25,517 nucleotides of DNA. Source: a virus. This document shows positions 3,000-17,704 of the stretch, in pieces. The stretch's first letter is position 1. Each line of letters begins with the position of its first letter. Both the position numbers and the translations under genes were made by a program. Where the stretch lies: IMG/VR virus record IMGVR_UViG_3300025128_005476, positions 1 through 25,517 of that record. The stretch is one strand, 5' to 3'. The notes beneath the pieces were generated by a model. It saw nothing but the letters and a program-made list of their open reading frames with translations, did not search any database and was not told where the DNA came from.

Positions 3000-3016
3000 C
3001 TTATCCTCTACTTTCT
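3000..3016 (-). repeat. Start cassette family 1, copy 5
   Basis: A perfect copy of AGAAAGTAGAGGATAAG on the minus strand, ending 3 bases before the start at 2996. It encodes ESRG-stop of the upstream gene. Confidence 0.9.
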
Positions 3017-3207
3017 AATTTCTCAACGGCATTGAGATATATTTCGTAACCATTCTCACTAAGACTGTCGATGCTTAATATTGGTGACGGCTTGAAGTAT
3101 TCCGTCAGTCGTGACAGTTTGCGATACCCTGAAGACCATTGCCCACCATGATATTCACTTAGAGCCAGATACCACGCTTCGCATATATCGAATCTATCAA
3201 AATACAT
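3001..3207 (-). CDS. Hypothetical protein ending in ESRG, 68 residues
   Basis: This unrecognised small protein has an N-terminal helix rich in aromatic residues (RFDICEAWYLALSEYHGG), a basic connector (YRKLSRLTEYFKPSP) and a C-terminal helix (YEIYLNAVEKLESRG). The 'Y-h-A-L-S-x-Y-H-G-G-Q-W-S' phrase is reminiscent of small phage helical proteins, but no family can be named. It starts 3 bases after start cassette copy 6 and its ESRG end is encoded by copy 5. Confidence 0.75.
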   Translation of the reverse strand: MYFDRFDICEAWYLALSEYHGGQWSSGYRKLSRLTEYFKPSPILSIDSLSENGYEIYLNAVEKLESRG

Positions 3208-3210
3208 ATT

Positions 3211-3227
3211 CTTATCCTCTACTTTCT
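3211..3227 (-). repeat. Start cassette family 1, copy 6
   Basis: A perfect copy of AGAAAGTAGAGGATAAG on the minus strand, ending 3 bases before the start at 3207. It encodes ESRG-stop of the upstream zinc-ribbon gene. Confidence 0.9.
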
Positions 3228-3367
3228 AGTTTGATTTGTTCACATTTATTGCAATACGGATTCTGTTTTATCATTGCTAATGTAGTTTGCTCATCAGTGA
3301 ATGATTCAACCAACAATGTCATTCCACATTTCTTGCATGAATATAACTTCTCAATTACTTTTGACAT
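3212..3367 (-). CDS. Small zinc-ribbon protein, 51 residues
   Basis: This short gene fills the gap between its neighbours. The product has two CxxC knuckles, C11-x2-C14 and C39-x2-C42, spaced by 24 residues as in a classical zinc ribbon (YSCKKCGM … YCNKCEQ). The N-terminus MSKVIEKLY is strand-like. It starts within the stop of the preceding gene (TAATG overlap), so it depends on coupled translation rather than on a cassette. Its end, KLESRG-stop, is encoded by cassette copy 6. Metal binding is a confident inference; the partner is unknown. It is distinct in spacing from the other zinc-ribbon gene in the operon. Confidence 0.75.
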   Translation of the reverse strand: MSKVIEKLYSCKKCGMTLLVESFTDEQTTLAMIKQNPYCNKCEQIKLESRG

Positions 3368-3641: not shown

Positions 3642-4208
3642 TTATCCATTCCTAGACTGGATAAATGTATCTTCTAGGCTCTGATTTTCTACGTGATTAT
3701 ATGTCATGTTTCGTGCTATCGTTTCAACGCTTTTATTACCAAACATATCAGCCCAATCTGTACCAGTATTTCCAGTAATGACGTTATTACTTCGTATCCA
3801 CCATACAGCCTTCGTATATTTTGTTTCGTAGTCTGTTATGTGTCGAGTACAGAATATGTATTTGGCTCCGAATTGCACAATTTTTGTTCCCTCTGGTAAG
3901 CTATCTGATCTGTTGTCTATTTCTGAAATATATCCAGTTGTTCCCTCTCTGTAATGTAATGTAATCGAGCCATCAGGGAATAAGTAATGCGATTGGCTAT
4001 AATCTAGGTCAATCATGCCATCAAAACCGCCTGCTTCATATTGTTCAGTGATTGCCTCAACGTCTTTTCTTAATGGTCCATCTTCCCAGTGAATTTTTAT
4101 ACAATTATGATCTGATCTGATCGAGAAAACTTGTTTCGGAAAACTAGCTTTTAACGCTTTTCTAATATGTTTCGCTGTATCTTTTGAACTAATATATATT
4201 TTTTCCAT
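3642..4208 (-). CDS. LPD29-like domain protein, 188 residues
   Basis: The N-terminal half (about residues 1-75) matches the pattern I know from the LPD29 domain of large phage and mobile-element polyvalent proteins: YISSKDTAKHIRKALKASFP, then FSIRSDHNCIKIHWEDGP, a helix (VEAITEQYE) and GGFDGMIDLDYSQSHY. LPD domains occur beside methylase, helicase and antirestriction modules; their biochemical role is not established. The C-terminal half is unrecognised, with strands and the phrase YIFCTRHITDYE. It is the largest gene of the early operon and stands alone here instead of being part of a polyprotein. The start at 4208 follows a second type of start cassette. The family call is from memory of the profile, not from a search. 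Confidence 0.65.
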   Translation of the reverse strand: MEKIYISSKDTAKHIRKALKASFPKQVFSIRSDHNCIKIHWEDGPLRKDVEAITEQYEAGGFDGMIDLDYSQSHYLFPDGSITLHYREGTTGYISEIDNRSDSLPEGTKIVQFGAKYIFCTRHITDYETKYTKAVWWIRSNNVITGNTGTDWADMFGNKSVETIARNMTYNHVENQSLEDTFIQSRNG

Positions 4209-5144: not shown

Positions 5145-5173
5145 TTGACTCTCTTTAGTATATGTAATAAAAT
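5145..5173 (+). promoter_or_regulatory. Rightward sigma70-type promoter
   Basis: TTGACT (5145-5150), 17 bases, then TAAAAT (5168-5173). Both hexamers match consensus at five of six positions. A start near 5179-5181 would place the transcript at the beginning of a structured, apparently non-coding stretch. Confidence 0.65.
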
Positions 5174-5351
5174 ACTCAGGGTGAGTTTCCGAATAGGGAG
5201 CTTTTTATGCGAATCCACGCTACCCTGTTGAGGGGTATGCTTACAAGATAAGCAAGCGGGACTAACTGAAACCGGACTTAAAAGAGGATCGGTAGTAGGG
5301 AAAAGACTGAGATTACACCAGGATGATGTAATTAAAGTATGAGCGCAGAAC

Positions 5352-5367
5352 ATGTACATATGTACAT
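5352..5367. repeat. Two tandem palindromic octamers ATGTACAT
   Basis: ATGTACAT occurs twice in direct succession; each copy is its own reverse complement, so the 16 bases are also one palindrome. An alternating AT tract (to 5389) follows. It may be a protein-binding or melting site, or simply part of the leader RNA. Confidence 0.5.
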
Positions 5368-5389
5368 ATATATAATATATATATATATA

Positions 5390-5422
5390 AAGGAGAACTT
5401 ATGCTTAAAATAAGTTCTCCTT
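5390..5422. terminator. 12-bp hairpin, candidate (attenuating) terminator
   Basis: AAGGAGAACTTA (5390-5401) pairs perfectly with TAAGTTCTCCTT (5411-5422) around a 9-base loop. AT-rich sequence flanks both sides but there is no clean T-tract. The left arm contains AAGGAG with an ATG at 5401, so the stem would also hide a ribosome-binding site for an eight-codon frame. Confidence 0.55.
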
Positions 5423-5439
5423 ATTAATTAATATAAATA

Positions 5440-5472
5440 AAAAAAGAGTTGTTTTAGTGACAACTCTTTTTT
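5440..5472. terminator. Bidirectional Rho-independent terminator
   Basis: A 13-bp stem, AAAAAAGAGTTGT against ACAACTCTTTTTT, with a 7-base loop. The flanking A and T runs give a U-tract on either strand. It separates the rightward promoter at 5145-5173 from the terminase genes, so those genes need read-through, antitermination or another promoter. Confidence 0.8.
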
Positions 5473-5477
5473 ATTAT

Positions 5478-5548
5478 TCCCTTCCCCTCCCCCTTACTGT
5501 TGTAAGAAAGAAAAGAAAAACTAAGCAAAAGAAAAGAAAGAGGCGGTT
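5478..5548 (+). other. Pyrimidine-to-purine switch ahead of terS
   Basis: A pyrimidine-rich run (5478-5496) gives way after a CTTAC/GTAAG mini-hairpin (5493-5506) to an almost pure purine run (5504-5538, A and G with a few C/T) that ends in the AGAGG ribosome-binding site for TerS. I see no sigma70 promoter here. It might be a phage-specific promoter, a packaging signal or a translation enhancer. Confidence 0.35.
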
Positions 5549-6064
5549 ATGTCGAGAAGTAAGACACTTAGTGAAGCGCAGGAGAAGTTTGCGATGCTGG
5601 TAGGATTAGAGGGTAGGACGTATGCTGAAGCTGCTGTAATAGCGTATCCGCAGATGCAACCGAAGGCGCAGCTAAAGAATTCGTGGAACCTTGCGAATGT
5701 TCCTAAGGTGGCAGCCCGGATTGAAGTTTTGCGTAAACAGAAAGAGGAAGCTGAAACAAACGCTCGTGTCGCAATTATGGAACGGGTTGAGACTAAGAGG
5801 ATAATGGCGAAGATAGCTGATGTTGAGGAGCGTGAGGCTTTCTGGACAGAACTTATGCGTGATGGTGGTGAGAGAACCCGTGACAGGCTTGCTGCAAGTG
5901 AGCTTCTCGGTAAGAGACAGAGAGACTTTGTTCAGCAGGTTGAGTCACAGACCTTAACTGCTACTGTGGATCTTTCACAGTTTTCATTGCAGGATCTGAA
6001 GGATATACTTGCTGTAGTCAAAGAGAGAAGGATGTTAGCTGATGGAACAAGTACTACTGAGTGA
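5549..6064 (+). CDS. terS: Terminase small subunit
   Basis: This 171-residue protein lies directly upstream of the large terminase. Its N-terminus (LSEAQEKFAMLVGLEGRTYAEAA, then AYPQMQPKAQ and NVPKVAARIEVLRKQ) follows the pattern of the Terminase_2 small-subunit family: a 'Q-x-x-F-A' helix, a 'eAa..Ayp' helix and a 'np.V..ri..l' helix. The rest is a charged coiled coil (residues about 62-130) and a short C-terminal segment, as expected for an oligomeric ring that recognises the packaging site and feeds DNA to TerL. GAGG precedes the ATG by 8 bases. Its last 23 bases overlap the TerL start. The position-based identification is strong; the family match is by eye. Confidence 0.8.
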   Translation: MSRSKTLSEAQEKFAMLVGLEGRTYAEAAVIAYPQMQPKAQLKNSWNLANVPKVAARIEVLRKQKEEAETNARVAIMERVETKRIMAKIADVEEREAFWTELMRDGGERTRDRLAASELLGKRQRDFVQQVESQTLTATVDLSQFSLQDLKDILAVVKERRMLADGTSTTE

Positions 6065-7517
6065 AAACGCTCTTGAACGTGAAATACTCGGAAGGGATCT
6101 TATTTCCTTTCTTGATTATGTCCGTATCCCTGACCCTCCCCCTTTCGGTAACGGCACAGCCGTATTTGAACCCTGGCAGCATATTATCAGACTCCATGAA
6201 GCAGTAGAGGATGTTGCGGCAGGCGGTACTCTGCCTCACCTTAAAGCAAGAAAACTTGGAGTTACTTCCTACTTCGAGGCACGATTCGTGTGGATGGGTA
6301 TATTCAGACATGGTGCTTTCCTGCCTGTTATATCTCAGGGTGAAGTGGAAGCTAAGAAGGTGATAGCAGATTGCAGATTTATATGGGATCACTTACCCGA
6401 ACACCTTAAACCGGAACTGACTGTCGATAACGCAACTACCCTTACTTTCGACGGGGGTGGTACTATTCAGGCTTTTCCCGCAACCAGTAAGGCTGGTCGT
6501 TCATACACAGGTACTGAAATCCTGGTTGACGAGGCTGACTTTCACTCGGAGTTTGAATCATCATATAACGCTCTACTACCGCTGATTCAGGACTCAGGCG
6601 GTAAGATGTTCGTTGTTTCTACCGCTAACCCTGATGTTCTTGATTCACCTTTCAGACAACTGTATCAGAACTCACATAACAAACTGTTCTTAGGCTACTT
6701 CGAAAGACCGAATAGAACAGAACGTACATACCTACAGGCACTTGAACTTGCGTCTGATGTCGCAAGGTTCGAGAAGGAAAACCCTAAGAATGAACACGAA
6801 GCCCTCGCTCCACCAAGAACAAGAGCCTTCTTTGATGTGGATTCACTGGAAGCTATGGGCGAGGATGTGATAGAACCTAAAGAAAATATCAGAGGACTCG
6901 TGTCAGTATGGCGTAATCCGGTTACAGCAGGAAGATATATCATCGGTGCAGATACAGCATGGGGCAGAACAGGAAGCTATAACTGCGCAACTGTTCTCGA
7001 CTGGCAGACAGGTAACCAGGTCGCTGAACTGCACGGAAGACTACACCCTGATGAGATGGCTCAGGAAATAATATACCTGCATCAGATGTATAATCACGCC
7101 TACCTCGGACTTGAACGGGCTGGAGAAGGTCTGGAACGTGACGGAGACTCCGTTGTTGTTGTCGATAAGGTGGCAGAGATGCTACAGGAATGTTCGTGCA
7201 GAAACAGACTGTACTACCACGATAGGAATACAGGTACTCCTACCACACCGGGATGGCAGACAGACGGCAAGACCAGACCAGTCATGCTTGCAGAGTTCGC
7301 AGAGGCTATACGAAACAGACTCATTGTGATACGATGTCGCGAAGGCATAGGGGAAATGCTCAGTTTCATTCGGAACGAGCAGGGTAGACCACAGGCAGCC
7401 AAGGGAGCGTATGATGACAGGGTTATGGCATACGCACTGGCATGGCAAATGCGTAAGTTCGCCAGCTTTACTTCATCATCAGCAACAAGAAAAGTATTCG
7501 TGCCTACATCGTTTTAG
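6042..7517 (+). CDS. terL: Terminase large subunit (packaging ATPase and nuclease)
   Basis: TerL pumps DNA into the empty head and cuts the concatemer. The ATPase half shows an adenine-binding motif (FEPWQ, residues 42-46), a Walker A-like KARKLGVTS (68-76, variant as usual in terminases), Walker B ILVDEADF (160-167, with D163-E164) and the coupling motif VVSTAN (191-196). The RNase H-like nuclease half shows GADTAWG (D304), LERAGEG (E358) and GAYDDRVMAYALA (D458/D459), the expected three acidic clusters. At 491 residues it has normal length. It overlaps terS by 23 bases; AGAAGG within terS is the likely ribosome-binding site. Confidence 0.93.
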   Translation: MEQVLLSENALEREILGRDLISFLDYVRIPDPPPFGNGTAVFEPWQHIIRLHEAVEDVAAGGTLPHLKARKLGVTSYFEARFVWMGIFRHGAFLPVISQGEVEAKKVIADCRFIWDHLPEHLKPELTVDNATTLTFDGGGTIQAFPATSKAGRSYTGTEILVDEADFHSEFESSYNALLPLIQDSGGKMFVVSTANPDVLDSPFRQLYQNSHNKLFLGYFERPNRTERTYLQALELASDVARFEKENPKNEHEALAPPRTRAFFDVDSLEAMGEDVIEPKENIRGLVSVWRNPVTAGRYIIGADTAWGRTGSYNCATVLDWQTGNQVAELHGRLHPDEMAQEIIYLHQMYNHAYLGLERAGEGLERDGDSVVVVDKVAEMLQECSCRNRLYYHDRNTGTPTTPGWQTDGKTRPVMLAEFAEAIRNRLIVIRCREGIGEMLSFIRNEQGRPQAAKGAYDDRVMAYALAWQMRKFASFTSSSATRKVFVPTSF

Positions 7518-11277: not shown

Positions 11278-14200
11278 ATGGCTCAGGTTCCGTCACAATC
11301 TCCAGCACAGGTAAAACTGGCTAACTCAGCTAGTCTATTTAAAACCCGCAAGCAAAGAGCGGAAGAAATACTTGCTCGTCCTAATGCTACCAATAGCTTA
11401 GGAATGATAAACCCACGAGTTGTTAGTAGAGAAGAAGCTGGCATTATAGCAAATTATAGAGCATCTCAAGCTCCTGGTGCAGCAGAACAAAGAGGACCCG
11501 TTGCGCCGCCTACTCCATTTCAGCAAACAGGAGTTATTAGGGAGCCAACAAAGCCTTTTGGACCTCCTGTACGCGCTGCTGGCGGAGCTATTAAGACAGT
11601 GGGCAGCAAAGCTATAGGTGCTATGCAAGTATTCGGAGCCTTGTCTGGACCTATTGTTGGACCTATTGTTCGGGGTTCTTTGGGTGGACCTATGATTGTT
11701 CCTAAAGATGATCCAGAGAGTGTTATGTCTGGTAAAGAATGGTTGAAAGATGTTGCAATACGAAGAAACAAAGGCGATCAGGTATTAAAATATTCTCAAC
11801 AGTTGCTTTCTGGTGACATAGGTCCAAAAGAGTGGGCAGGCGAGATGATAAAGATACAGGAGTCGAAAGGCTTTTGGGATCAAATGATATCAGAATTACC
11901 TATAGACCTTATTCCGGGTGGGGTGTTAATGAAAGGACCGAGGGCTACTGTTTCTGGTCTTACGAAGATTGGACAGAACGCGATACGAGCAGCGGGTCCT
12001 GTAAAGGTTCCTGGGCTTCACAGGTTAACAGAGGAGGGTGCAAGAGCCGCTACAATAGAAGATGTTTTAACTCCAAGACTAGCTTTTGTTGGAGAGGGAC
12101 AGAAGGTAGCATCTCTTTCTAGTTTCAGGAAAAAAATAACTGCTGCATATACCCGTAACCCCACTGACGATTCGCTGTCTCGCTTACGGGTACTGGAAGA
12201 AGCAATGGGGATGGGCAAGGGTAAGACAACATTAAAGCCTGATATAATAAATAACCTTCGCAGATTAACTGATGATGATATAGATACATTATTAAAAGAT
12301 ATGTCTGATGCTGGAATACCTCTTAATAAAAAAGAAACTACCAGATACCTTAATCGTGAAATGCAATCAAGAATTTCTCCTTGGGATGCCAAGGTTGGAG
12401 ATCAGCTTAATCATCCAACCAGAGGAGATGTTATTGTTCAGGCAGTAGATGGTGATTCTTTACGGATAGCTAATCGAGACCCATTAACCGGAGAGGCACG
12501 AACAGGGTTTGCCTCTGTACAAACAGTTAATAGAAGTGACTTTAAGATTCCTGCGCCTACTGCAAAACAAACTAAAACTACTGGCAAAGTAGCCACTATC
12601 GTAGTGGATGGCGAGCCAGAATATTATTATATTGTTGAAAAGTCTATTAGGGAGATCAGTGGCGTTCTGCCGCGAAGAACAGAAGATGTATGGCAAATAA
12701 AAGTCCTTCCTGAATTTGACAGGCTATATGGCAGACCAGCGATGAATATAGGTGAACAAACTTATTCGTCTAAGTCTAAGGCTTTAGATGCGTTAGCAGA
12801 ACAGTTTGGAGATGCACTACGAAAAAACACAGACAACATGGACAAAGCGTTAGTCAAAAAATTAGATGCAGCAGATGCTCCAGTCACTCCAGTTATAAAA
12901 GCGACAGATGAGATTGTAGAAGAGGTAGCACCAGTAACAGGCAGAACTGCTGAAGATTTAAACCTTGTCAAGAAGGGTAGGTACTATTATCCAACACGCA
13001 GCGATGGAACCGCAGATGATATAGGCGGACCTCCAATACACAAGGTTGTAATAAATGGAGAGGACAGGTTTGTAACCTCCATCTATCACGAGGGGGGGGT
13101 AGGAACTCAGTGGTTTGAGTACAAGGGTCCCGATTCATGGAAGACTGTTGATACGAGTTACCCAAAACTACCAGAATATGACGCGACTGCTCCTTGGGGG
13201 TTCTCTAGAAAAGAACTAGTAGAGAAGCTGACAGCGGAAACAACAGAACAGGTTGCAGACCTTAGAAGAGTTCCAGTGGGAACAGCTACAACAACCAAAG
13301 CAGCTACTGGCAAGTTCGCCAATAAGGTTGACGATATTGTAGAGTTAGATGACGGAACTGTTAGGATAACGTCTATAGGGAAAGGTGCAAAGGGAAGGGT
13401 TGCAGTAGAGTATGTTGATACCGGCAACACTCGCACCATGCCAAAAGATGTATTTCAGCAAAGACTTGCCCGTGCAACAACAAGAAAAACAGCACAGCAA
13501 GGAACCAAGGTAATACCTAAGAGAGTAGTTGCTAAGGCTATAAAAAACGTAGACACTCCTGCGGATGGGCAGATTCTAAATACTGGCGATACATTTACCT
13601 TATCTGACCCTCCACCAGGAAGAACACAGTACGAGAAAGATGCACTTAGAGCCTCGCCAATGTATAGCGTAGAGACTATAGGACGGGGTAAAAAGAAAGG
13701 CACATCAATAGTAACCATAGATGCAGGATACCAAATTCAGCACGTTAATGTTCCAAAAGGAAAAGACCCTACGGACTTTATGATGGAGTTGAAGGGGAAT
13801 CCTTCTGCAACTGATAAAAAAATAGCAGGTGGTCGCAAGCCAAAGACAAAAGTTCCTAATAAAAAAATACGAGACAAAGTTAAAAAGACAACGACTGGTA
13901 AAGGTAAAGGTGGTAGGTCGAAAAAGAATACAGCAGAAGCTGGCGAGAAGCCGTTACCAGAAGTAGTAGGGGCGTTAGGGCAAGCTACCACTATTGTTGC
14001 AAGAGATAAGCCTGGTCTTATTCAGAATATTATGGATTCGATGGCTGGCATGAAATTCCTACTTAGAAAAGTGCTTCCTAAGTTGGAGATGGATGATCCT
14101 ACTTTAATTGCTTATGTGGCAGAAGGTAATGTTCGTGCCTCTGCTGGTGCAGCTCTTGACCAAGTTAGAATAAAAATTATGAACCAGTGGGTTGCAGAGT

Positions 14201-16866
14201 TTGGGATTGACGTTGTACGAGGTACAAGAAAAGCTGACATACAGTATATTGGCACTGACCAACTAGCCAGGAAAAACTACAAAGGCACAGGCACTTTGTA
14301 TGATATTCTTCAAAATCCACAATTATATGATTTAACTACGCCGCAAAGAAAGTTAATTAGAGATTCTCAATCTGAGTTAAATGCTGTATATAAAAAAGTG
14401 ACTAGTGACTATGGAGTTGACATAGGAATATTTCCTCCCAAGCCAGGTGGAGTATTTCTTTCCAATATAGACATAGCCCCAAAAGCTGATGGGTCTTTGG
14501 ATGATGGTCTTAACAGACTGTTTGGATCTCCTGTTTACGGAACAACAAAGAAGTCTGGTCGTGCCAAGCGCAGATATTACGAGACGGGTCTGGACAGATG
14601 GAAGTCTGCCTCTACTAAGGGCGAGCCTGACTTTGAACCGATGACTGATCTTTTTAAGCTACTTGGAGTGGAAATGCACGGAACATATGCAAAGATGGCA
14701 GGTCGCTCTGTGTTTAAGGCAGGGGTTCCTGGGCTTACTAGGGCTGAAGTAATAGCACGGATTGGCACTGCCGAAGCAAAAAAACTTTTAACCAATATCA
14801 ATACTACTAATAAAAGATTACAAACACTGCAAAGTGCTTTCAGAAAACTAAACAATGATGCAGCAGATTCGATTGATAATTTCTTGAAGTCCACACAAGG
14901 CAAAGCTGATTTAGATGAGATCGTTGGACTGATGGAAGACTTTAAGGTTTCACCGGGTAGGTATGTGGCTAAGGATGCTTCTATTGTTGGAATGACTGCG
15001 GCTGACCTTCAAAAAGAAATCAAGGCTGTGCGACAAATCTTAAAAGGCATGAAGGAGGATTACGCACAAGTTAAGATTCCTGGGTATAAGTTTGTTGAAG
15101 ATGGTATGTTTAAGTATTATCCAATAGAACAGGCTGACCATATCAAAAGGCTTAATCAGGTTAACGATAGTACGTTCTGGAACGTATTAAATGAGGTGCG
15201 AGCCACAGCCTTTGGAGGGGATTTATCTCCGATAAGTATACAAGGTATGCAGGCATGGCTTTATAGCCCATTACAAATGTCAAAATTCTTATGGAACTCC
15301 GGTACTGGGTGGGGTAACTTTTCTGGGAGATTTACTGTTAAAGCACTAATGGATGATATGGCAGCAAACCCAGAATCTTGGGATAGGTTTATTAAAGGTA
15401 CAGGTCTAAATCCATTAGAGGGTGTTCAGCAAGAGTTTGGTGTAGGGTATGTAGGTAAGATCAAATTCAAGGGTATTGGGAAAAAGTGGACAGAAGCTAA
15501 TGAAGCAGTATATAGACCCATTACCCGTATGGCTAAGGATCTGTTTGATAGTAATTATGATCTTGCTATTGCACAAGGGTACGATGAGATGACTGCAATA
15601 GCCATAGCAGCAGATGATGCAACAAAGCTAGTTCCCCGTATATCATACAGAAGGCTGGGTCAGTCTGCTAAACAAGCAGCTATGCAGCGTGGTATGCTAA
15701 CTTCTGTTTCTTTTCTTGTGCAGCCTACTGCTTTAACAATAGATGCAGCAAAAGGACTAATGAAGTGGGGGTTAAGGCGCAATGTAACTATGACAGAAAA
15801 TCTGGCAATAAGAAGAATATTAAATTTTGCAGCTACCACTTCCGCTCTTTCTGTTAGTAGCGCAATCATGTATGCCAAGATGAATGACAACCCAGAGGTT
15901 ACGGCAATGAGAGAGGCGCGCAATGCTCTTGATCCTAGACACCCTAACTTTATGGCAATTACTATGCCAAACGGAATGAGATTGAGCATAGGTGGTCCGA
16001 TTCGGTCTTTACTACGAGCTATTGCTCCAAGACCCGTAAAGGTCGTGGGGCTTGAAGACGAAATACCCCTTCCATTTGCAGGGATTATGAAGTGGGGTGG
16101 CTATAAATTAGGACCAGGGATTAATACTATAGTTGACCTATGGCAAGATAAAGATTTTTATGGAAGGGAAATCGCAACAGGAGACTTTCCTATTAGTATT
16201 CTACAGCAAATTTCATACTTTTTCAGTACAGGAGTACCTTTAGTCGGTCAGTCAGCAGTAAGGGCTGGAGTACGGGCTGCTACTAGTGGTGAGGGAATGG
16301 CGGAGTTTGAGGGTATGGGAACAGAGATATTGGGTCAAGCCGGAGGAGTGAACCTGGTTCCGTTTGATTCTGTATATCAGGCAAGACTGAGGTGGACCGA
16401 AGATATTGATGCGTATAGGGAAATCCGTGACCTCAATAGAGATAAGGTACAAAAAGCTAAGTTGAATCCTATAAGCACATCAGCATTTAGAAGTGCCAAT
16501 CCAGACCTTGATGCTAAGTTGTTTATTACTGGCGAAGGAGGAATTGGTAGCTTGGGCGAAAGGGCTATAAAGTATGCTGTAAGACTTATGTTAGTTAATA
16601 AGATAGCACTTGAAGATGTTGACAGCATTGTAGAGAGACAAGAGTTTATTGAAGAATATATTAAAGTGAATAACAAAAGACCATCCGGTAATAATATTGA
16701 TGAACTAATAAAACAGTATAACCGGCAAAAGGCATCGCTAGAACGAAACATAATATCTAAGCCGATGCAAAGACCGCAACCATCTACTCCAACACCAGCA
16801 GGTGATAGAGGACTAACTCCAGCAGGAGCATCTCCTGCTCGTAAACCTGAAGGATATTGGGATTAG
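11278..16866 (+). CDS. Giant internal-virion / polyvalent-type protein, 1862 residues
   Basis: The largest gene in the window, translated immediately after the previous stop with AGAAGG upstream. Visible segments are: an Ala/Pro/Gln-rich N-terminus (1-130); a helical part (130-370); two or more small SH3-like beta units (near 370-425, KVGDQLNHPTRGDVIVQAV; near 680-730, VDDIVELDDGTVRITSIG); a very basic linker (near 850-885, many Lys/Gly); and a long helical C-terminal half. That half contains a stretch (near 1310-1420, FGGDLSPISIQGMQAWLYSP and ALMDDMAANPESWDRFI) typical of large phage internal/polyvalent proteins, two hydrophobic segments (near 1470-1498 and 1504-1530), and a Pro-rich tail. 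Likely role: packaged in the capsid and ejected with DNA, as for podovirus inner-core proteins. No polymerase, lysozyme or protease motif was found by eye. Confidence 0.6.
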   Translation: MAQVPSQSPAQVKLANSASLFKTRKQRAEEILARPNATNSLGMINPRVVSREEAGIIANYRASQAPGAAEQRGPVAPPTPFQQTGVIREPTKPFGPPVRAAGGAIKTVGSKAIGAMQVFGALSGPIVGPIVRGSLGGPMIVPKDDPESVMSGKEWLKDVAIRRNKGDQVLKYSQQLLSGDIGPKEWAGEMIKIQESKGFWDQMISELPIDLIPGGVLMKGPRATVSGLTKIGQNAIRAAGPVKVPGLHRLTEEGARAATIEDVLTPRLAFVGEGQKVASLSSFRKKITAAYTRNPTDDSLSRLRVLEEAMGMGKGKTTLKPDIINNLRRLTDDDIDTLLKDMSDAGIPLNKKETTRYLNREMQSRISPWDAKVGDQLNHPTRGDVIVQAVDGDSLRIANRDPLTGEARTGFASVQTVNRSDFKIPAPTAKQTKTTGKVATIVVDGEPEYYYIVEKSIREISGVLPRRTEDVWQIKVLPEFDRLYGRPAMNIGEQTYSSKSKALDALAEQFGDALRKNTDNMDKALVKKLDAADAPVTPVIKATDEIVEEVAPVTGRTAEDLNLVKKGRYYYPTRSDGTADDIGGPPIHKVVINGEDRFVTSIYHEGGVGTQWFEYKGPDSWKTVDTSYPKLPEYDATAPWGFSRKELVEKLTAETTEQVADLRRVPVGTATTTKAATGKFANKVDDIVELDDGTVRITSIGKGAKGRVAVEYVDTGNTRTMPKDVFQQRLARATTRKTAQQGTKVIPKRVVAKAIKNVDTPADGQILNTGDTFTLSDPPPGRTQYEKDALRASPMYSVETIGRGKKKGTSIVTIDAGYQIQHVNVPKGKDPTDFMMELKGNPSATDKKIAGGRKPKTKVPNKKIRDKVKKTTTGKGKGGRSKKNTAEAGEKPLPEVVGALGQATTIVARDKPGLIQNIMDSMAGMKFLLRKVLPKLEMDDPTLIAYVAEGNVRASAGAALDQVRIKIMNQWVAEFGIDVVRGTRKADIQYIGTDQLARKNYKGTGTLYDILQNPQLYDLTTPQRKLIRDSQSELNAVYKKVTSDYGVDIGIFPPKPGGVFLSNIDIAPKADGSLDDGLNRLFGSPVYGTTKKSGRAKRRYYETGLDRWKSASTKGEPDFEPMTDLFKLLGVEMHGTYAKMAGRSVFKAGVPGLTRAEVIARIGTAEAKKLLTNINTTNKRLQTLQSAFRKLNNDAADSIDNFLKSTQGKADLDEIVGLMEDFKVSPGRYVAKDASIVGMTAADLQKEIKAVRQILKGMKEDYAQVKIPGYKFVEDGMFKYYPIEQADHIKRLNQVNDSTFWNVLNEVRATAFGGDLSPISIQGMQAWLYSPLQMSKFLWNSGTGWGNFSGRFTVKALMDDMAANPESWDRFIKGTGLNPLEGVQQEFGVGYVGKIKFKGIGKKWTEANEAVYRPITRMAKDLFDSNYDLAIAQGYDEMTAIAIAADDATKLVPRISYRRLGQSAKQAAMQRGMLTSVSFLVQPTALTIDAAKGLMKWGLRRNVTMTENLAIRRILNFAATTSALSVSSAIMYAKMNDNPEVTAMREARNALDPRHPNFMAITMPNGMRLSIGGPIRSLLRAIAPRPVKVVGLEDEIPLPFAGIMKWGGYKLGPGINTIVDLWQDKDFYGREIATGDFPISILQQISYFFSTGVPLVGQSAVRAGVRAATSGEGMAEFEGMGTEILGQAGGVNLVPFDSVYQARLRWTEDIDAYREIRDLNRDKVQKAKLNPISTSAFRSANPDLDAKLFITGEGGIGSLGERAIKYAVRLMLVNKIALEDVDSIVERQEFIEEYIKVNNKRPSGNNIDELIKQYNRQKASLERNIISKPMQRPQPSTPTPAGDRGLTPAGASPARKPEGYWD

Positions 16867-16871
16867 TAATG

Positions 16872-16900
16872 TTGACAATGACGCTAACAAATATTATATT
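16872..16900 (+). promoter_or_regulatory. Sigma70-type promoter for scaffold and capsid genes
   Basis: TTGACA (16872-16877, perfect), exactly 17 bases, then TATATT (16895-16900, five of six). It lies in the 94-base gap after the giant gene and would start transcription near 16907, before a GGAGG site and the scaffold gene. This is the best promoter in the window. Confidence 0.75.
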
Positions 16901-16960: not shown

Positions 16961-17704
16961 ATGACAACGGACAATACTGAGCAGACTACGGCAGAAGCCA
17001 CGGAAACATTAGAAACGGAAGACGCTTCTACCCCTGAAAAGTCAGCTAGGGAAGTTGAGTTAGAGGCACAGCTTACAGAGCTTGAACAGCGGGCTAAGAG
17101 TGCAGAGGGCAGACTAAAGGCACGGGATACATCCCCTACCCTTCAGGCTGAAGTATCTGAGTTACGTGCTGAGATGAAAAGGGATAGACGGGAACGTCAG
17201 CGTAGAGAAGCAGATGAGGCAGACCTAACGCCTATGGAAAGGCAACAGACCCTTAATCGCATCAACGATGAAGAACGAACTGACGTAGAGCGAGATCGTG
17301 TTTACACTTATGCAGAACGACTCGCAGGTCGAATCAATCCCAGACTCGCATCAGTTGGACTTACTCAGGATGATCCTAAAGTACAGGCAGCATTGACGAA
17401 GTGGAACTCGGCTGTTTCTATAGATGATTTCGAGAATGTTTATGACGAACTCGATGATCTGATTGAAGCAGAGCGTGTATCACAGACCAGTGCAAAAGTA
17501 GAAGAAGCTCGTAAAGAGGCTCAGGAAATAAGACAGCAGTATAACCAAGAGAACAATACTCTGGATGTAGGTGCTACCAATGCAGGAGTCGGGCAATCCG
17601 GTGGAATGTCTGACCAAGGTACATGGGAAGCATACGGAAGGGGCGAAATTCCTTGGAGCAAACGTGTGGGTGACGCAGCTAAAAATCTTGGATATCTTAG
17701 TTGA
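16961..17704 (+). CDS. Capsid scaffolding-like protein
   Basis: A 247-residue acidic, highly charged protein with a Thr/Glu-rich disordered N-terminus (residues 1-28), a long coiled coil (about 30-95, REVELEAQLTELEQRAKSAEG) and a central helical region. A second helical stretch (VEEARKEAQEIRQQYNQE) leads to a Gly-rich tail with a short basic C-terminus (WSKRVGDAAKNLGYLS). This architecture, and the position upstream of the capsid gene behind its own promoter, fit scaffolding proteins that guide coat assembly and then leave. The basic C-terminal end would match the coat-binding helix-turn-helix seen in such proteins. AGGAGG precedes the ATG. Confidence 0.72.
   Translation: MTTDNTEQTTAEATETLETEDASTPEKSAREVELEAQLTELEQRAKSAEGRLKARDTSPTLQAEVSELRAEMKRDRRERQRREADEADLTPMERQQTLNRINDEERTDVERDRVYTYAERLAGRINPRLASVGLTQDDPKVQAALTKWNSAVSIDDFENVYDELDDLIEAERVSQTSAKVEEARKEAQEIRQQYNQENNTLDVGATNAGVGQSGGMSDQGTWEAYGRGEIPWSKRVGDAAKNLGYLS

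Follow-up and report, generated by a model that had tools for sequence, protein, structure and literature searches.

In a 25.5-kb IMG/VR virus record of an uncultivated phage (the window, 25,517 nucleotides long and probably a fragment), we found a promoter, a conserved folded RNA core of about 170 nt and a downstream intrinsic terminator that stay together in four phage lineages. The initial annotation of this DNA had raised the possibility of a new type of small phage RNA, and our comparisons bear this out: promoter, RNA and terminator position are conserved, and a small RNA matching no known RNA family is well supported. Our best guess, which we hold tentatively, is that this RNA acts by put-like antitermination in cis without belonging to the put elements, and it may control whether the late genes are read. 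To our knowledge, few RNA elements alter the response of RNA polymerase to terminators on their own, and those of HK022 serve early genes. If our reading is true, an unrelated phage group would have a larger RNA with a different fold at its late-gene switch, providing a second kind to compare; even if the RNA acts in trans, it would be an uncatalogued phage RNA under strong selection.

Conservation of the RNA and its promoter

Small leftward ORFs occupy roughly 0.2–5.0 kb of the window and the rightward genes start with terS; GC and AT skew switch sign near 5.0 kb, as expected for a divergent junction. The region had been placed ahead of the terminase genes, and we identified both of these downstream, the small subunit terS (5549–6064, + strand; phrog_51, E = 2.9e-7) and the large subunit terL (6042–7517, + strand; phrog_2, E = 2.5e-24). 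All TerL relatives among deposited phages are less than 60% identical, and those listed are 23–26% identical. When a TerL profile was run against about 800 genomes of two phyla in search of a host, it returned one distant match only. Close relatives of the window were collected by TerL searches, and the region of interest is present on six contigs that represent four distinct versions: the window (= L003), L017/L018, L006 and L007.

The rightward promoter claimed in the initial annotation is a sigma70-type sequence, TTGACT-17-TAAAAT, at 5145–5173 (+ strand). By itself it does not stand out from chance (3 kb contain 10 promoter-like sites where 7.4 are expected), so the case for it is comparative: at the equivalent position, L006 and L007 have TTGACG-17-TAAAAT, with hexamers and spacing retained and the 17-nt spacer diverged. 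Deduced from the position of the –10 hexamer, the +1 would lie near 5179–5181 (GGG). Near-consensus promoter-like sites (at least 10/12) on the + strand fall in gaps at 5145, 16872 and 5023, the last of these upstream of 5145 in the same gap, and the same scan gave none between the terminator and terS. The site at 16872–16900 (TTGACA-17-TATATT, 11/12) is a possible second rightward promoter; it lies in a 95-bp gap ahead of a 247-aa ORF at 16961.

The structured core that follows the promoter (5179–5348, + strand, about 170 nt) is strongly conserved and scores 189–221 bits in the covariance-model search. Over aligned bases, the core is 98% identical to the window in L017, 91% in L006 and 89% in L007. 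For the same three versions, identity to the window at fourfold-degenerate terL sites is 90%, 53% and 56%, and identity of terS is 95%, 64% and 52%. Because the core remains 89–91% identical where fourfold-degenerate terL sites have fallen to 53–56% and terS to 52–64%, this comparison shows purifying selection acting on the core as an RNA or DNA sequence in its own right. In L007, neither the DNA preceding the promoter nor that following the core is related to the window, yet the RNA still adjoins terS, which has itself diverged to 52% identity. The approximately 680 bases upstream of the L007 promoter (L007 1–680), unrelated to the window, contain no ORF longer than 50 aa.

Indels of 42, 12 and 6 nt in the core prompted a search for coding sequence. 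The earlier view that there is no convincing gene here was nearly right, except that a 14-codon ORF, MRIHATLLRGMLTR (5207–5251, + strand; 28 codons in L017 and L006), lies inside the core and is possibly untranslated. We consider it improbable that the core represents a short protein-coding gene or a leader peptide (MRIHATLL[R/K]GMLT...), with the RNA conservation being partly codon conservation. Start and stop are retained in all four versions, the 42-nt insertion is in frame, changes are mostly synonymous or between R and K, and a GGAG motif is present 6 nt ahead of the ATG in the window. However, the conserved stretch also covers the 5′ leader and continues past the stop, the Shine-Dalgarno-like sequence becomes GGGA in L006 and L007 and is predicted to be paired in helix P1, and the ORF has no PHROG or Pfam match. 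A frameshifted small protein in a second frame (QAGLTETGLKRGSVVGKRLRL...) looked open, but a TAA in L017 breaks the frame; it has no family match, and one further family search gave only E > 1.

Searches for known families gave no match at the gathering threshold in Rfam 15, and a permissive Rfam search returned only sub-gathering matches, mostly in the AT-rich flank. A group I intron or other catalogued ribozyme was rejected on the lack of an Rfam match. The phage and plasmid records that we searched contain no match to the core, and exact-pattern scans of IMG/VR and GTDB genomes found no further copies; because exact patterns would miss diverged copies, the RNA family may be wider than found. 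Pattern and protein scans of viral contigs and one pattern scan of genome contigs also returned the known clade and terminase relatives, and the other matches were chance by inspection or did not fit the RNA model.

Predicted fold and downstream hairpins

The region had been described as a structured segment, and 5180–5475 indeed folds with z = –7.3, but the two downstream hairpins contribute most of this, and for the core alone (5180–5350) the advantage over shuffled sequences is only moderate (z = –2.8). For 5179–5352 the z-score is –2.6 in the window, and the equivalents give –3.3 in L017, –2.1 in L006 and –1.2 in L007. When we tiled 4–9 kb with 59 tiles of 174 nt, the lowest z-score, –8.8, was found in the tile starting at 5361.

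Within the core (+ strand throughout), helix P1 (GAGUUUCC / GGGAGCUU, loop GAAUA; 5183–5203) forms 8 pairs in each of the four sequences, three of them showing one-sided changes, and includes the possible Shine-Dalgarno of the short ORF. The predicted folds place a three-way junction at 5214–5261, with a stem UCC.CGC/GCGGGA and two hairpins, P2a (ACCCU-GUUGA-GGGGU), which has one compensatory pair, and P2b (UGCUUA/UAAGCA). In L017 and L006 a 42-nt insertion of two hairpins sits at the tip of the P2b arm and leaves the arm intact; the window and L007 are without it. The helix CUG..ACCGG / UCGGU..UAG (5266–5298) is the weakest, with a loop that varies in length (a 12-nt insertion in L006 and a 6-nt deletion in L007) and pairing that is partly broken in both. 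A helix ACU..GAUUACA / UGUAAUU..AGU (5306–5338) appears in the predicted folds, and a proposed closing helix, UGCG (5208–5211) / CGCA (5344–5347), would enclose 5208–5347 and is invariant, so it offers no covariation test. P1, the three-way junction and the 3′ helix are common to the folds, with the L006 junction present in the centroid and not in the MFE structure. Across the four sequences, 98% of cells are paired, a single pair is compensatory (C-G to U-A) and several changes are one-sided; these counts do not exceed the shuffle control. Because covariation in the core is this thin, its structure stays a well-motivated model and is not proven.

An AU-rich linker separates the core from the first hairpin, t1 (5390–5422, + strand), which has 11–13 bp and no U-tract on the + strand and shows two compensatory pairs between window/L017 and L006. 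The second hairpin, t2 (5440–5472, + strand), is an intrinsic terminator of up to 13 bp with a T-rich tail and one compensatory pair; because of an A-tract on its 5′ side, it also resembles a terminator on the – strand. Both hairpins are paired in all four sequences compared and together have three compensatory pairs, a covariation score reached by 5 of 500 shuffles. Their pairs covary between the window, L006 and L004, a contig that begins inside t1 and shows the remainder of t1 plus t2. Covariation in homologous leaders, which had been suggested as a check, is seen in t1 and t2, but in the core it amounts to one compensatory pair and does not go beyond shuffles. The "double terminator" of the initial annotation consists of two real hairpins, but only the second has a U-tract on the + strand, so we describe it as a hairpin plus a terminator. 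In L007, t2 is replaced by an unrelated terminator (L007:932–961) behind almost unchanged RNA; the terminator position is retained and the terminator sequence changes. Between the terminator and terS we also noted a C-rich motif, CCCTTCCCCTCCCCCTTACTGTTGT (5480–5507), which is absent in L007 and retained in L006 and L004 (CCCCACCCCTCCCCTTACTGGTG) with different flanks; it is a possible late promoter, pac or leader element.

A candidate late-operon leader and its proposed mode of action

On two grounds we regard the RNA as the probable leader of the late (packaging/structural) operon: apart from 5145, the gaps of the late region contain a single near-consensus rightward promoter, at 16872, and sister phages without the RNA have TTGAC before terS and no terminator there. 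In these sister phages (L011, L014, L016, L019 and L080), none of which matches the RNA covariance model, TTGAC lies about 35–45 nt ahead of terS, and terminator scans of L011, L014 and L016 found none on the + strand ahead of terS. Promoter, RNA and terminator occupy the place of this TTGAC in the RNA-bearing clade. The sister-phage comparison is suggestive only because the –10 hexamers of these phages are poor. Against the leader reading, a late promoter may have escaped recognition: the C-rich stretch at 5480–5507 in the window and L006, and the AT-rich DNA ahead of terS in L007, are candidates for part of one.

We propose that the promoter at 5145–5173 doubles as the late promoter, that late transcription would start at about 5180 and that RNA polymerase would have to pass the terminator to make terS and terL. 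The nascent folded RNA would act on the elongation complex such that some or most polymerases read through, and the remaining polymerases would release a short stable RNA. This action would be put-like in that it is RNA-based and indifferent to the terminator sequence, without the RNA being a put element. A stronger form of the proposal, in which the RNA alone, as a processive antiterminator belonging to a new structural class, turns on the late genes in cis and needs no dedicated protein, seems to us rather doubtful.

The initial annotation had compared the layout to antitermination modules, and this agrees with the position of the RNA, with the lack of a near-consensus intergenic promoter from the terminator to 16872 and with the sister phages, which are without both RNA and terminators, but the likeness to put stops short of architecture. 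The put RNA of HK022 is about 70 nt long and has two stem-loops (PMC9378689). Like put, the window RNA is encoded by a phage, close to a promoter and ahead of terminators, and we propose a put-like mode of action for it; in contrast to put, which serves early operons, it is about 170 nt long, combines the predicted P1 with a multi-branched domain and precedes late genes. When the RNA model was searched against HK022 24000–34000, where put sites are unannotated, the best match was near chance (9.1 bits, E 0.056), and an Rfam search of the same interval reported nothing. Read-through by put itself is protein-independent and proceeds via the beta′ zinc-binding domain. The lambda pR′/6S RNA/tR′ module likewise has a promoter, a short RNA and a terminator directly before the late genes, and it depends on the protein Q. 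In contrast, we found no Q-like match in the ORFs scanned, and the window RNA is itself strongly conserved and structured. No antiterminator protein was matched in PHROG or Pfam among these ORFs, which represent a fragment and part of its small ORFs; the earlier statement that no Q-like protein is evident therefore holds for the ORFs scanned, but Q could lie elsewhere, as the contig is a fragment.

Close behind cis antitermination in our estimate is an independent structured noncoding RNA acting in trans (protein-binding or otherwise), with its own promoter and terminator, while the late genes would be transcribed from a different promoter. Equal conservation of promoter, RNA and terminator, which here form a complete transcription unit conserved as a cassette, would be expected of a trans-acting RNA gene, and the core is more elaborate than put; both points count against the cis reading. 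There is also precedent in the highly transcribed ncRNAs of unknown function of cluster A mycobacteriophages and Rhodococcus phage WC1 (PMC10986025), which are phage noncoding transcripts, although the window RNA is known from sequence alone and has no homologue in the phage collection. However, the RNA always lies directly before terS in the clade, there is no recognisable promoter between terminator and terS, and there is no exact complementarity of at least 11 nt elsewhere on the contig. This last result argues against base-pairing with phage mRNAs of this fragment, and an antisense RNA to phage mRNAs was rejected on the same ground. A dual RNA similar to IsrK of Gifsy-1, in which the terminated form is itself active and the read-through form is an mRNA leader, is unlikely. 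IsrK is a prophage RNA with documented terminator read-through into downstream genes (PMC4825925), and the promoter-RNA-terminator-genes layout is shared, but IsrK works with an antirepressor and AntQ and not a terminase operon, the comparison is of descriptions and not of sequences, and we saw no evidence for trans activity of the window RNA.

A riboswitch or attenuator, in which core and terminator would pair alternatively, is slightly less likely again. It would suit the aptamer-like multi-branch fold ahead of the hairpins and the pairing of the t1 5′ arm in L006 (918–934) with the core, apparently with the P1 5′ strand (–14.1 kcal/mol compared to –8.1 kcal/mol, sd 1.7, for shuffled cores); however, the window shows this pairing weakly and L007 not at all, and turnover affects the terminator sequence but not the core. 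Such a switch would require the core to covary with the terminator. We found no consistent core-terminator pairing, and together with terminator turnover without change in the core, this disfavours a base-pairing switch. Terminator turnover with a constant core is compatible with an effect on polymerase, as in HK022 put (PMC9378689), or with a stand-alone RNA. A packaging RNA similar to phi29 pRNA is the least credible of these readings and highly improbable: the RNA adjoins the terminase genes and has a predicted three-way junction, but the phage has TerS (PHROG 51) and TerL (PHROG 2), inspection of the predicted fold found no complementary pair among the loops GAAUA, GUUGA, UUAAAA and AGGAU, and Rfam gave no match.

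Other features of the window

Rightward of the terminase genes, an ORF of 1862 aa (11278–16866) has no significant Pfam or PHROG match. In the leftward region, four small – strand ORFs (1617–1805, 2347–2631, 3001–3207 and 3212–3367) share the terminal residues ESRG, perhaps because a Shine-Dalgarno-like sequence serving the next gene is embedded in the codons for these residues. The ORF at 3642–4208 (– strand) has a Pfam LPD29 domain (E 2.9e-17) and matches phrog_15549.
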